Below are positions 18,915 to 26,958 of a stretch of DNA of 64,000 nt, piece by piece. Numbering within the stretch: the first letter of the stretch is position 1; each line of letters opens with the position of its first letter. The translations under genes and the position numbers were made by a program. This DNA comes from Halostella salina (lineage in GTDB: Archaea > Halobacteriota > Halobacteria > Halobacteriales > Natronoarchaeaceae). Where the stretch lies: contig NZ_RCIH01000008.1 in the NCBI RefSeq assembly GCF_003675855.1, forward strand, positions 62,001 to 126,000. The letters are read 5' to 3'. The notes under the pieces are model-generated. The model was not told the origin of the DNA. It was given only the letters and a program-made list of their open reading frames with translations, and did not search any database.

Positions 18915-19104
18915 TGTCGATGATAACGGTCGTGAGGCCGCACGCGACGCCCAGCGCCGCGAGCGCGATGCCGGTCGGCGTCGAGCCGCCGGCCTCCAGC
19001 CCGGCGGCGATCAGACCGACGCCGAGTAGTTTCGTGATCCGGTCCACCCAGCGGTACTGCCGCGCGGAGAGCGCCACGTCGTCGCTCGGGCCGGGCGCGC
19101 TCAT
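18907..19104 (-). CDS. Small two-helix membrane protein of the nar operon
   Basis: 65 residues with a short N-terminus, an amphipathic stretch ([13 protein letters not shown]) and two predicted membrane helices ([14 protein letters not shown] and [18 protein letters not shown]). It overlaps narG by 8 bp and the cytochrome b gene by 4 bp, so it is certainly co-expressed with the complex. It has no motif for a cofactor and may be a small structural subunit that helps hold cytochrome b to the reductase. Confidence 0.8.
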
Positions 19105-20612
19105 CGGTCTCCCCCCTCGTCGTTGCTCGCGTCGTCAGTCGTACTGTCGGTCACCCCGTCGGTGGCGTCGACGGGCGACTCCGCCGCCGCGTCGCTCGCC
19201 GACCCATCCGCTGCGGGTTCGTCTGCTGACCCCTCGCCTGCCGGCGCGTCGTCGCCGAAGCCGCCGAGCCCGGCGTACACGGTCAGCCCGGCGGCGAGCG
19301 GCCCGGCGAAAAGCGCCGCGATGAAGTACGGTTTCAGCTCGGCCGTCGTCATCCCGAGGATGTCGGCGACGATGATGTCCATCCCCGCCAGCGAGGCCAG
19401 CAGGATGAACACGACGCCGGCGACGCCGACGGCCGTCTGGAACGGCCGTTCGATGGGGTCGGCCGCGAAGTGGACCGGCTCCTCCTCGTAGTCGATAAAG
19501 GGCCAGACGGCGACCACGCCGAACACCAGCCCCGTCAGGACGATGCCGCCGATGAACTCGGAACTGCCGTGGACCCCGAGCAGGTCGAAGCTCATCCAGG
19601 CGGGGACGAGCTTCAGGAACCCGTACCCCCACATCAGGAACCAGTCGGGCATGATGAGCGACGGCGTCGACGCGGGGTCGTTGGGCCCGTACTGTGCGAC
19701 GTTGTGGACCGGCAGGAACCCCGCCAGCAGCGACAGCGTCGCGAGCGTCAGGAAGAACACGACGGCGCTGACCGCCGCCTGGTTCGGGAACGCCGGCAGG
19801 CCGGCGACGATGCTGTCGTCGTCCCGGTCGACGCGCTCGACGCCCGCCCCGTCGGCCGCGACGCCGGTGGCGTCGTCGTCCGCCCGACGCTCCGGCCCCG
19901 GCAGGTCCTCGTCCCGCTGGGCCTCGGTGTGTTTCTGTCGGATGAGGATGGCCATATGCAGCCCGAGGAGGCCCGCGATGACCAGCGGCAAGACGAGGAC
20001 GTGCAGGAAGTAGAACCGCGGTATCGTGGCGCTGGACGGGAAGTTCCCGCCGAAGACGAGATACGCCGCCGTCTCGCCGACGATGGGGATCGAGAGCGCG
20101 ACGTTGTAGCCGATCCCGACCGCAGTGCTGGCGAACTCGTCGAAGGGGAGCGCGTAGCCGGTGTAGGCGGCGAACATCGAGGTGCCCGCCAGTGCGGTCC
20201 CGACGAGCCAGTTGACCTCGCGGGGGTTGCGGTACGCGCCGGTGAAAAACACCCGCAACATGTGCAACGCCATGGAGGCCACGAACAGGTGGGCCGCCCA
20301 GTGGTGCATCCGCCGGATCAGCATCCCGAAGGGCACGTCGTACGTGATGTTGAGGACGCTGGCGAACGCTTCGGGGATCTCCTCGCCCTGATACTCGGCG
20401 ACGCTGCCCTCGTACTCCACGTCGCTGGTCGACGGCTCGAAGAAGAAGCCGAGGAAGATCCCTGTCAGGACGAGCACGAGGAAGCAAAACAGCGCGACCT
20501 CCCCGAGCAGGTACGAGTCCTCGGCCGGGAACGCCTTGCCCAGGAACGACTTCGACCGTTCCAGCCCGAGCCGGTCGTCGAACCAGCCGTAGAGGCGCTC
20601 GATGCGGCTCAT
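19101..20612 (-). CDS. narC: Cytochrome b subunit of the Nar electron-input module
   Basis: A 503-residue cytochrome bc1/b6f-type b subunit with the b6 and subunit IV parts fused. The first ~240 residues hold four membrane helices with haem ligands in [24 protein letters not shown] and in [20 protein letters not shown]. After a charged linker (~245-285) come the subunit-IV-like helices with [20 protein letters not shown], the PDWY/PEWY-type quinol site region. The last ~60 residues are a low-complexity Ala/Asp/Ser/Glu tail. Together with the Rieske protein it should oxidise menaquinol and pass electrons outward to NarGH. In Haloferax the matching gene is called narC. Confidence 0.93.
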
Positions 20613-21316
20613 CCTCCACCCCCGGGGCCGACCGACCCCTCGAAGTCGCCCGTGGCGATCAGATGACCCTCGCTGGACAGCGTGATCGGGAGCTGGGGCA
20701 GCGCCCGCGGCGGCGGCCCGCCGGTGACGCTGGCTCCGGTCAGCGGATCGAACCGCCCCGAGTGACAGGGACAGACCAGCGTCTCGCCCTGCCGGTCGGC
20801 GACCATGCAGCCGGCGTGGGTGCAGACCTTGGAGTAGGCCGCGTAGCCGCCGACGGTGAACTCCATGTTGGTCCCCTCACCGTACTGGTCCTCGCCGAAC
20901 CGCACGAGCAGCGTCGGCGCGTCGCTGATCCCGGGGTGGCTCTCGGGGAACACCGTGAGCTGTTCGCCCTCGGCGAGGCGGCCCTCCGTGACGCGCTCGC
21001 CCTCCCCGTCGACGAGCGCGACGCCGTCGGAGTACACCGGGCCGGTGTAGCTGCGCTCGAACACCTGCGTGAGGCTGACGACCGGGGCCGCGAGGCTGGC
21101 GACGGCCGTCAGGCCGCCGATGGTCGCGAGCGCCTTCGCGTAGTCGCGCCGTGCGATCTCGGCACGGTCGTCCCGCCAGAACTCCTGGTAGATGCTCGGC
21201 GATTCGGCCGGACCGCCGGCACACTCGCAGCCGTTGCCCGCCGCGCCGGACTCCGGTAGCGAGCCGACCCGTGGGGCTTCCTCGTCCGTGCCGTCGGCGT
21301 GGTCGTCGCCGGTCAT
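20609..21316 (-). CDS. narB: Rieske iron-sulfur protein of the Nar module
   Basis: A 235-residue membrane-anchored Rieske protein. Cluster ligands are C165 and H167 (CTHAGC) and C182 and H185 (CPCHSG); C170 and C184 can form the usual disulfide. Residues ~56-82 ([26 protein letters not shown]) look like a Tat-type signal anchor, placing the cluster domain outside the cell. It takes electrons from quinol at the cytochrome b and hands them on. The ATG at 21316 overlaps the stop of the preceding gene. The frame is open upstream but without family-like sequence, and an odd Cys-x-Cys (GNGCECAGG) lies before the anchor. Confidence 0.93.
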
Positions 21317-21930
21317 CGGTGATCCCTCCGTTCGGCCACCTCGACGTGGGGCATGAACCAGGCGTAGTACGACACCGTCAGCCCGGCCAGCGACATGAAC
21401 ATGCCGAACGCGTAGATCCCGAAGTACTGCGTCCGGGCCAGCGTGAGGTACTCGCCGGTAAACAGGGCGGCGAAGGTGATCGTCAACACGGTCAGCGTCC
21501 CCATCGCGATCAGGCCCTCGATAGCGTCGCTCGCGGGGACGTACTCCACGATCCACCGGTCCTCCGTCTCCAGCCACGAGAACGTCGCTCTGCCCCCGTC
21601 AGCGGCGGTCTCGGGCACGTCGCCGTCGCCACTCCCCTCGGCCGGGGCCTGCGTCGCTCCCCGGGACGGTCTGGCGGCGCGGTTCATGAACCGGTGGAAG
21701 AACGCCAGCACACCCAGCAGGACCAGCAGCGCCACCCAGACGATGACGCCGACCTGGCTCGGGGAGAGCTTGTTCGGCGTGTCGACGAAGCCGTCGAGCG
21801 GCCGGATCTCGCTGACGCTACCGTCTATCTGGACCTCCTCGCTCGGCGGTTCCCCCTGGCTCGCGACGTACCAGGTCGGGAGCAGGAACGCCGAAACGAC
21901 GAGGACCACGACCAGCGTTCCCCGTCTCAT
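21313..21930 (-). CDS. narA: First gene of the nar operon: four-helix membrane protein (narA position)
   Basis: A 205-residue protein with an N-terminal hydrophobic segment (LVVVLVVSAFLLPTWYVA), a second helix (VGVIVWVALLVLLGVLAFF), a hydrophilic middle (~85-125), and two C-terminal helices (GLIAMGTLTVLTITFAALF and FGIYAFGMFMSLAGLTVSYYAWF). There are no Cys or paired His ligands. The same position in haloarchaeal nar operons is called narA, and its function is unknown. The first two helices faintly resemble the membrane part of a cytochrome oxidase subunit II-like protein, but copper ligands are absent. It is the promoter-proximal gene. Confidence 0.8.
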   Translation of the reverse strand: MRRGTLVVVLVVSAFLLPTWYVASQGEPPSEEVQIDGSVSEIRPLDGFVDTPNKLSPSQVGVIVWVALLVLLGVLAFFHRFMNRAARPSRGATQAPAEGSGDGDVPETAADGGRATFSWLETEDRWIVEYVPASDAIEGLIAMGTLTVLTITFAALFTGEYLTLARTQYFGIYAFGMFMSLAGLTVSYYAWFMPHVEVAERRDHR

Positions 21931-22819: not shown

Positions 22820-23854
22820 TCAATCGCCCGCGGGCTTCACACCCAGTATCTCGAACTGCGCTCCGCCCGCCTCGCTCTCCGTTATCGAGAGATCCCAGCC
22901 GTGCGCCTCCGCGATCTGGTCCACGATCGAGAGCCCGTATCCCGTCCCGTCCTCGCGGCTCGAGTACCCGTGTTCGAACACCTCGGTCCGGGCGGACTCG
23001 GGGATCCCCGGGCCGTCGTCGGCGATGTAGAACCCGCCCGGAAGCGTCCCGACCCGGACCGTGACCCCGCTTCCGCCGTGTTCGACCGCGTTGCGGAACA
23101 CGTTCCCGAGGAGGTCGTGTAACCGGCTCCGGTCGGCCTCGACCGTGCCGAGGTCCGACTCGACGACCAGGGTCGCATCGCCCGTGTCGGTGTTCCGCCA
23201 CGAGTCGCGGACACAGTCCTCCACGTCGACCGTCTCCGTCGCGCCGATGGACTGCCCGTCCTTCGAGAGGGTCAACACGTCGTCGACGAGCGTATCGATC
23301 TGGTCTAGCGCCTCGGCGACCCTGTCGACCTCCGGCACGTCGTGTTCCGCCTGTACCAGTTCCGTGTACCCCCGGGCGACCGACAGCGGGTTTCTGATGT
23401 CGTGAGCGAGGAGGTCCGCGAACTGGTCCAGTCGCTCCTTCTGGTCGTGAAGCTGGTCCTCGCGCCGTCTGCGCTCCGAGATGTCGCGGATGATGCCGGT
23501 GAAGAACTGCTCGCCGTCGTGTTCGTGCTCCCGGAGGCTTATCAGCGTCGGCACCTCGTGGCCGTCCTTGTGGAGCGCCGGAAGCTCGATCCCGTCCCAG
23601 TCGATGTTTCGGTCCCCTGTCTGTACGTACGCTTCGAGCGCCTCGGCGTGGACCGGGCGGAGCCGCTCCGGGATGATCTTCATCTTCGAACTCCCGACGA
23701 GTTCCTCGGGTTCGTAGCCGAGGATCCCCTCGACGGCGGGGTTCGCGTAGACGATCCGGCTCTCCGCGTCGATCGTCAGCATCCCCTCCGCGGCGTGCTC
23801 GACCAGGGTCCGGTAGAACTCGTCGTTGTCCCCCGGTAACGTTCCCGGCTCCAT
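22820..23854 (-). CDS. PAS-domain sensor histidine kinase
   Basis: A 344-residue cytosolic kinase. One PAS domain (residues ~12-130, starting FYRTLVEHAAEGMLTIDAESRIVYANPA) is followed by the PAC end FFTGIIRDISERRR, a dimerisation helix with the phospho-acceptor His in LLAHDIRNPLSVARGY, and the ATPase with N box NVFRNAVEHG, G1 box DDGPGIP and G2 box GTGYGLSIVDQIAEAHG. It has no membrane segment and no receiver domain. No response regulator lies beside it, which is usual in haloarchaea. The PAS lacks the photo-active Cys motif seen in the next kinase, so its ligand is unknown. Confidence 0.9.
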   Translation of the reverse strand: MEPGTLPGDNDEFYRTLVEHAAEGMLTIDAESRIVYANPAVEGILGYEPEELVGSSKMKIIPERLRPVHAEALEAYVQTGDRNIDWDGIELPALHKDGHEVPTLISLREHEHDGEQFFTGIIRDISERRRREDQLHDQKERLDQFADLLAHDIRNPLSVARGYTELVQAEHDVPEVDRVAEALDQIDTLVDDVLTLSKDGQSIGATETVDVEDCVRDSWRNTDTGDATLVVESDLGTVEADRSRLHDLLGNVFRNAVEHGGSGVTVRVGTLPGGFYIADDGPGIPESARTEVFEHGYSSREDGTGYGLSIVDQIAEAHGWDLSITESEAGGAQFEILGVKPAGD

Positions 23855-23942: not shown

Positions 23943-25421
23943 TCACTCGCACGCGGGGACCGAAAGGTGAAGGGTCGTGCCACGGGACTCGCCGGTCGAG
24001 ACGTCGAACTCGCCGCCGACCTTGTTGATCACCCAGTAGATGAGCCAGAGTCCCAGCCGGTCGGCGTGGTTGAGTGGGGTCTCGCCGCCGCGGAGGACCT
24101 CCACCTCCCGGTCCGGGATCCCCGGGCCGTCGTCCGTGATGTCGATGTCGACCCAGCCGTCGGCCCGGCTGTCGACTGCGATCTCGACCGACGGCTCGGG
24201 GTCGTCGTTGTGTTCGACGGCGTTCTCGACCGCCTCCCTGACGGCCGTCATCAGCCCCGTCACGGCGACCTCGGTCGGTCCGTCCTCGGGGAGCGTCACG
24301 TCGAACGCCGCGTCCGGATAGCGGTCGTCGAAGGCGCTCACCAGCATCGCCAGCCGTTCGTCGAGGCGGATCGGGTTCGTGCTCTCCCCCGGCGCGGACA
24401 CCGCGTCGATCTTCTGAACCGCTTCGGCCAGGCCCATGAGTTCCCGCGTCGCCTTCTCTATCTCGACGACGTACTCCGACGGCTCCCCGTCGCCGTCGGA
24501 GCGAAGCATCGACGTGTACCCCTCGATGACGTTCATCTTGTTCCGCAGGTTGTGGCTGAGGACCCGGTTCAGCACTTCGAGCCGCCGCTCACGGATCTTC
24601 CGGTCGGTGATGTCGACCTGAAAGCCGACGAAGTTCCGGACGCCGCCGTCCCCGTCGTGGATCGGCGCGATGCTGAGCCTGTTCCAGAACTTCTGGCCGT
24701 TCTTCCGGTAGTTGAGGATGTCGACCGAAACCGACTGACGGCTGTCGATGGCCTCCCGGATCGTCGCCCGCGTCTCGGGGTCCGTCTCCTCGCCCTGCAG
24801 GAACCGGCAGTCCTCGCCGACCCTGCCCGTGCTGTAGCCGGTCAGCTCCCTGAACTGGTCGTTCGCGTACACCAGCGGGTTGTCGCCCGGTCCCGGTTCG
24901 GTGATGGTGATCCCGATCGGCGCTTCGTCCATCGCCCGCTCTTTCAGTTTGAGGTCCTCGACCGTCCGCTCCAGTTCCGCCTCGCGCTCGGCGAGTTCGG
25001 CGGCGGTCCGCCGGCGCTCGACCAGGTTCCCGATACGGGAGAGCAGCGCCGTCCGCTTCACCGGGAGTTCGATGACGTCGTCGACGTACTGCCACGCCTC
25101 CGTCTTCGATACGTTGCCCGACTCCTCCCCCACAAGCAGTACGAACGGGAGAAACACCGCTTCACCGGTGTCGCGCCGGGACTGGACGGTTCCGGCGACC
25201 CTGTCGAACTCGTGGGCGTCGAAGATACAGCAGTCGTACGCCGTCTCGAGCGTCGCCACGTCGGTCGTCGTTTCGACCTCGTACCGTTCCCCGAGCGTGT
25301 CGACCAGCAGGCTCCGGTCCCGGCCGGGCCGCATGAACAACAGAACGCCGGGTTCGTCGCCGGCCGGGCTGTCGTCACCGGATCGGATATCCGCCGTCGT
25401 GGCGTCCCTGTCCGGTGACAT
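23943..25421 (-). CDS. LOV-domain histidine kinase, candidate blue-light sensor
   Basis: A 492-residue cytosolic protein. Residues ~24-135 form a receiver-like domain with degenerate acidic positions. A coiled coil (~135-165, LAEREAELERTVEDLK) leads to a PAS/LOV domain (~165-275), then the His box LSHNLRNKMN (His290) and an ATPase (NAVEHND, DDGPGIP). The PAS matches the LOV signature: GEDCRFLQ with the flavin-adduct Cys205, Arg206 and Gln209, then LNYRKNGQKFWNRLSIAPI (Asn237, Asn247) and FVGFQVDIT (Gln268). Only the Asn of GxNCRFLQ is changed, to Asp204. FMN binding and light sensing are therefore likely but unproven. It is divergent from the KaiC-like gene, 73 nt apart. Confidence 0.92.
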   Translation of the reverse strand: MSPDRDATTADIRSGDDSPAGDEPGVLLFMRPGRDRSLLVDTLGERYEVETTTDVATLETAYDCCIFDAHEFDRVAGTVQSRRDTGEAVFLPFVLLVGEESGNVSKTEAWQYVDDVIELPVKRTALLSRIGNLVERRRTAAELAEREAELERTVEDLKLKERAMDEAPIGITITEPGPGDNPLVYANDQFRELTGYSTGRVGEDCRFLQGEETDPETRATIREAIDSRQSVSVDILNYRKNGQKFWNRLSIAPIHDGDGGVRNFVGFQVDITDRKIRERRLEVLNRVLSHNLRNKMNVIEGYTSMLRSDGDGEPSEYVVEIEKATRELMGLAEAVQKIDAVSAPGESTNPIRLDERLAMLVSAFDDRYPDAAFDVTLPEDGPTEVAVTGLMTAVREAVENAVEHNDDPEPSVEIAVDSRADGWVDIDITDDGPGIPDREVEVLRGGETPLNHADRLGLWLIYWVINKVGGEFDVSTGESRGTTLHLSVPACE

Positions 25422-25450
25422 TCGTTGTACCTATCCCCGTTTACTTCTTA

Positions 25451-25460
25451 AGCATTGTCC
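25451..25460 (+). promoter_or_regulatory. TATA box in the shared LOV kinase / KaiC-like promoter region
   Basis: CATTTATATG at 25451-25460 is an archaeal TATA box about 40 nt upstream of the KaiC-like start. Only 73 nt separate that start from the divergent LOV kinase start at 25421, so a protein bound here could affect both. Confidence 0.55.
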
Positions 25461-25494
25461 ATTTATATGTCCCCCCCGATAACGTACGCGCACG

Positions 25495-26958
<1,464 letters not shown>

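Follow-up and report, generated by a model that had tools for sequence, protein, structure and literature searches.

Does a histidine kinase of the haloarchaeon Halostella salina perceive blue light through a flavin-binding LOV domain, and where would such a signal go? The question is raised by a reading frame in the window, the 64,000-nucleotide stretch of H. salina DNA analyzed here, which the original prediction had read as a histidine kinase of haloarchaeal type that bears an almost complete LOV photosensor signature. We examined the domains of this kinase, the state of its LOV motif among relatives, and the genes that stand beside it.

Domain order and structural relatives of the kinase

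The reading frame on the minus strand is open and stop-free over 492 codons, and its translation could be divided as follows:

23943-25421, minus strand: LOV sensor histidine kinase of 492 aa (ORF translation, Pfam, phmmer, Foldseek)
25062-25349, minus strand: receiver-like N-terminal domain, residues ~25-120, probably a pseudo-receiver (clade alignment, predicted secondary structure)
24927-25061, minus strand: long helix, residues 121-165, between the receiver-like and LOV domains (structure model)
24603-24926, minus strand: LOV/PAS domain, residues 166-273 (Pfam, phmmer, alignment, Foldseek)
24795-24818, minus strand: LOV core motif GEDCRFLQ, with the codon of the adduct Cys205 at 24807-24809 and a one-residue deletion immediately before the motif
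24402-24584, minus strand: DHp helices, residues 280-340, with the H-box LSHNLRNKMN and the phospho-acceptor His290 (Pfam HisKA, alignment)
23952-24260, minus strand: HATPase_c catalytic domain, residues 388-490 (Pfam, E = 2.5e-14)

The LOV core reads G202-E-D-C205-R206-F-L-Q209, and downstream of the cysteine in its motif follow LNYRKNGQKFWN, which carries Asn237 and Asn247, and FVGFQVD, which carries Gln268; Pfam assigned a PAS_9 match in this protein (E = 1.1e-19). The numbering of Cys205, Arg206, Gln209, Asn237, Asn247 and Gln268 in the original prediction was correct on the translation, as was its remark that Asp, here Asp204, stands where GxNCRFLQ has Asn. A feature that it had not mentioned is the spacing between TGY and the motif, which is one residue shorter in H. 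salina (TGYSTGRVGEDC) than in relatives (TGYDTEEVLGRNC). The transmitter part is that of a histidine kinase, with His290 in SHNLRN and the HATPase_c match given above; the HisKA match (E = 3.3e-4) scored 21.1 bits and fell below the cut-off of 26.9. Against NF052306, the NCBIfam equivalog for blue-light-activated histidine kinases, the protein reached 127.9 bits with a cut-off of 450, and it was therefore not assigned to that equivalog.

The top phmmer matches in the PDB were LOV kinases (EL346, 4r3a, E = 5.5e-32; YF1, 4gcz, 5.6e-31; also Brucella LOV-HK). With the AlphaFold model of the kinase as the query, Foldseek placed 4gcz at the top (E = 3.2e-23), and 3t50, a single LOV domain, superposed at 1.8 Å with a TM of 0.85 of the target. 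The LOV match is far above chance level, and the reading frame, its domains and the PDB matches all agree with a haloarchaeal histidine kinase that bears a LOV signature. In the AlphaFold model, pLDDT is ~58 at residues 201-210, where the Cys-bearing helix is unformed, and a model of the LOV domain alone was poor (mean pLDDT of 58.6), the sequences being too few. The bacterial LOV kinases of Erythrobacter (EL346) and Brucella (LOV-HK) and the YtvA-FixL chimera YF1 share with the H. salina kinase the order of LOV, DHp and ATPase as well as the Cys, Asn, Asn and Gln residues of the pocket. In contrast to the bacterial proteins, the H. salina kinase has GEDC for GxNC and the one-residue deletion before the cysteine, an extra receiver-like domain in front, and a haloarchaeal HNLRN-type H-box. 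We consider it very likely that the kinase carries a LOV-type flavin domain, which is predicted from its residues to bind FMN and to form a photoadduct.

The N-terminal domain was modeled with a pLDDT of <55 (secondary structure E25-30, H36-44, E50-52, E63-68, H69-78, E94-97). No match to Pfam Response_reg was obtained in this part of the kinase, and the clade alignment revealed no acidic pair on strand 1; Asp68 occupies the phospho-acceptor place, which is Gly in some orthologues, and the combination of acidic pair, phospho-Asp and Lys that marks a receiver domain is incomplete. Since the usual phosphorylation pocket is missing, there is no obvious phosphorelay within the kinase, and the domain may have a docking role instead of that of a phospho-acceptor.

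Gene order around the kinase and its KaiC-family neighbor

Two features lie on the other side of the kinase start, the first of which had been missed by the original prediction:

25495-26958, plus strand: two-domain KaiC-family ATPase of 487 aa, divergent from the kinase
25444-25468, no strand assigned: sequence CTTCTTAAGCATTGTCCATTTATAT within the 73-bp kinase/KaiC gap, a putative bidirectional promoter element shared by the two genes (by eye)

The ATPase matched Pfam KaiC in two stretches (E = 1e-77), and both P-loops (GKT) and both catalytic Glu pairs (EE) are invariant in the 40 sequences of its clade. The place of S431-T432 in KaiC is taken by Ser413-Tyr414; with the Ser-Thr pair absent and a score of 182.6 bits against the cut-off of 546.25 for the clock KaiC equivalog, the protein was filed as KaiC-family and not as a clock protein. 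Judged by eye and with no statistics, CTTCTTAAGCATTGTCCATTTATAT resembles CACTAAGNNNTACCCATTTATAT in relatives and has a TATA-like end.

A divergent KaiC neighbor (70-78% identity) was found in every full-length kinase orthologue that we fetched, while the kinase orthologues themselves are less conserved (53-63% identity) than their KaiC neighbors. Halorubrum and two further genera keep the pair, as do three uncultured MAGs and H. salina, and none of the other window genes tested showed synteny with the orthologue loci. No response regulator gene was seen at a conserved position beside the pair. In the other four genomes of the genus, only partial or distant matches to the kinase were seen and no orthologue, and the pair has therefore probably been gained by transfer or lost elsewhere. 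A plasmid origin of the kinase was considered and rejected, as only partial relatives with <45% identity were found on plasmids.

For a comparison of neighbors, 80 regions around further KaiC homologues were fetched. The KaiC tree placed the H. salina protein in a 40-row clade with a support of 99. A kinase was adjacent at 40/40 loci of this clade, a LOV-like one at 39/40 and a Cys-bearing LOV at 36/40, H. salina included, while outside the clade the neighbor was a kinase at 45 of the 74 loci and a LOV-like kinase at 7; all LOV adjacencies were scored by a sequence pattern within 250 bp, which leaves more distant LOV genes uncounted, and the start positions of some neighbor ORFs are uncertain. 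The difference in LOV-like adjacency (39/40 versus 7/74) corresponds to a Fisher p of 4e-22, a value to be taken only as a guide because the KaiC rows are related to each other and non-independent. At L154, one of the clade members, the neighboring kinase is of the ordinary PAS type.

A LOV kinase is likewise found next to some KaiC genes that are more distant (L221, L230, L229, L215, L218, L178 and L247, from Haloferax, Salinigranum and others), mostly with both genes on one strand, and the pairing may thus have arisen repeatedly. Two genes were matched in two pieces, the KaiC gene of L107 and the kinase gene of L093, and each has an apparent frameshift that reflects decay or sequencing error. 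Within the window, the LOV kinase is followed, likewise on the minus strand, by a second, ordinary PAS histidine kinase (22820-23854), which is not kept beside the pair in relatives. From their translations only, the minus-strand ORFs 19101-20612 and 20609-21577 appear cytochrome b-like and Rieske-type-like, respectively, and ORF 21313-21930, also on the minus strand, appears to encode a small membrane protein.

Asp204, the shortened loop and the cysteine among relatives

The original prediction had implied that a LOV kinase would be a novelty in haloarchaea, a view that is ruled out by a catalog of LOV proteins from 2014 (PMC4844311) and a photocycle shown in 2025 (PMC12202551). The former, Losi 2014, gives 167 archaeal LOV proteins from Halobacteria and Methanomicrobia, with LOV kinases and LOV-HTH proteins among the Halobacteria entries, and the search pattern used there, as we read it, permits the spacing of the H. 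salina kinase (PMC4844311). In the latter, ALovD-1, a Halonotius LOV domain from Lake Diamante, was purified with FMN (446 nm) and formed a 390-nm adduct that then recovered (PMC12202551). These proteins belong to the same archaeal class as the H. salina kinase, and the kinases among them have REC/PAS/GAF, LOV and kinase architectures, as here; neither a GxDC short-loop clade nor a KaiC neighbor is described in the available text of either paper.

Our own survey sampled the class with 294 genomes, and its counts rest on the matches listed. Among these, the GxNCRFLQ DNA pattern was present in 237 genomes and 69 of 78 genera, and the GxDCRFLQ pattern in 38 genomes of 7 genera, mostly of one genus, Halorubrum (H. 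ezzemoulense, H. persicum, H. aquaticum and Halorubrum sp. Hd13). The GxDCRFLQ genomes include non-orthologues, namely, other LOV proteins (L097/L104 and L099/L100), and the matches of L101/L102 lie in frames other than those of LOV genes. Thirteen kinase orthologues were obtained from GxDCRFLQ genomes, and in these Asp and the deletion occur together; GxDC with one residue fewer after TGY is common to Halorubrum, one further genus (L096/L132) and H. salina, and these forms cluster in the kinase tree with moderate support (92/88). In the genus represented by L145, L149 and L153, the loop is of canonical length and the motif reads GRNC. We rejected the notion that Asp204 is a private mutation, as the state is clade-wide.

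In AsLOV2, the place of Asp204 is held by N449, which touches the FMN ribityl chain. The N449E variant keeps its FMN with a slightly faster recovery, no single mutant in the literature recovers faster than N449S, and the A, I, K and T variants bind no flavin (PMC10751770). Since N449E binds FMN, an acid at position 204 is compatible with flavin, and by analogy it may speed recovery; Asp204 and the shortened loop would probably reduce the lifetime of the adduct and would not abolish flavin binding.

In the alignment, C205, N237, N247 and Q268 are kept in nearly all orthologues. The cysteine is lost in two lineages, being Phe in L152 (GRSFRFLQ) and His in L009 and L010 (GENHRFLQ), whose sister L011 retains it (GENCRFLQ). 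As the cysteine is missing from these kinases, the light adduct would be dispensable within the family, and L011 set against L009/L010 offers a natural Cys-plus/Cys-minus contrast that would reveal the value of the photoadduct. The latter three are near-identical kinases of uncultured Halobacteriales, in which the loop is yet one residue shorter. In the genus of L145, L149, L152 and L153, the second pocket Asn (FWN) is replaced by Gln or Glu (FWQ, MWE).

A candidate blue-light input to a KaiC-family ATPase

We propose that the gene product is a soluble, dimeric blue-light receptor kinase, the LOV pocket of which would bind FMN. Blue light would produce the Cys205-FMN adduct, the signal would reach the DHp/ATPase core along the post-LOV helix (residues 272-308), and autophosphorylation at His290 would be altered. 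Phosphate or a conformational signal could then be relayed to the KaiC-family ATPase, or the same output could be regulated by both proteins, and in either case the pair would serve a KaiC hub as its light-input module. Support at the sequence level comes from the LOV core and its pocket residues, from the kinase boxes and from the conserved divergent KaiC pairing. That the kinase is light-switched we regard as highly probable. Its functional coupling to the neighboring KaiC, for which the basis is gene order only, is modestly favored, and the overall explanation, a blue-light receptor kinase that feeds a KaiC-family switch, is in our judgment reasonably likely.

Haloarchaea are known for light-dependent rhythmic expression of kaiC homologues, and the cir genes of Haloferax respond to light/dark, with cirC adjoining a PAS kinase annotated as fixL (PMC3941300); it is therefore plausible that a KaiC-family protein receives light input from a kinase. 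CirC of Haloferax volcanii, compared here by description, resembles the H. salina ATPase in being a haloarchaeal KaiC homologue of two domains whose gene adjoins that of a PAS kinase (PMC3941300), and other Haloferax genomes contain a related KaiC (62% identity) with a same-strand downstream kinase without the LOV motif. KaiC-like ATPases have been proposed as archaeal signaling hubs (Makarova 2017, as cited in PMC5847659), and KaiC-kinase adjacency in general fits this proposal. Our literature search, which did not extend to Makarova 2017, found no paper that combines LOV, KaiC and haloarchaea, no account of LOV-KaiC pairing as a clade property, and no named light sensor for the rhythmic expression of haloarchaeal kaiC. 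Haloarchaeal LOV kinases as such were already known, but with its conserved place beside KaiC this LOV kinase constitutes a specific candidate light input for an archaeal KaiC system.

The resemblance to cyanobacterial KaiC with SasA/CikA lies in the combination of a two-domain KaiC-family ATPase with a histidine kinase, and CikA also bears a pseudo-receiver. The pairs differ in that S431-T432 of cyanobacterial KaiC corresponds to Ser-Tyr in the H. salina ATPase and that the presumed input of the latter pair is a LOV domain, unlike in SasA/CikA. It is a tentative idea, which we put forward as possible and not as the expected outcome, that LOV kinase and KaiC-family ATPase make up a dedicated two-gene blue-light input module of haloarchaea, a flavin-based counterpart of the cyanobacterial clock input kinases. 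If true, this module would supply the type of sensor that is missing behind light-dependent rhythmic kaiC expression.

An ordinary PAS kinase that looks LOV-like by chance and holds no flavin would fit with Asp204 and the deletion beside Cys205, which deviate from the consensus, and with the low local confidence of the model. Given the >40% identity to LOV crystal structures, the preservation of pocket residues in an otherwise strongly divergent family and the FMN retained by AsLOV2 N449E (PMC10751770), we find this reading very improbable. A flavin-binding domain could also act as a redox or oxygen sensor, with light irrelevant in vivo: the family has lost the cysteine at least twice, mostly with the Asn and Gln of the pocket retained, its distant matches include NifL-type flavin PAS domains, and Cys-less flavin LOV domains can signal via photoreduction (PMC4682037). 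However, Cys205 is kept at nine-tenths of the KaiC clade loci, that of H. salina among them, and the nearest solved relatives of the kinase are light receptors, which makes a redox sensor unlikely.

It is likewise conceivable that the kinase senses light and KaiC is merely co-transcribed or linked by chance, the two proteins acting in separate pathways. Adjacency by itself proves no interaction, and haloarchaeal KaiC genes adjoin many kinds of histidine kinase, as at the 45 loci outside the clade; yet the pair is held together across genera and uncultured MAGs where the other tested genes are not conserved, and the 73 bp between the two genes form a shared promoter region in which one element looks conserved. 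We therefore regard separate pathways as rather doubtful and retain the blue-light kinase feeding KaiC as the preferred reading.

The kinase is not the only LOV protein of its host, as the H. salina genome encodes four other LOV domains with the cysteine and the pocket residues (L002, L003, L004 and L005). One of them, L004 (G000:C1, ORF ~267335-269359), is a Bat-type regulator with PAS/LOV, GAF, BAT and HTH_10 domains and lies ~60 bp upstream of a rhodopsin gene (L248, G000:C1:269422-270081). Its motif, GRNCRLLQ, retains the cysteine, whereas Bat of Halobacterium salinarum has been reported without it.
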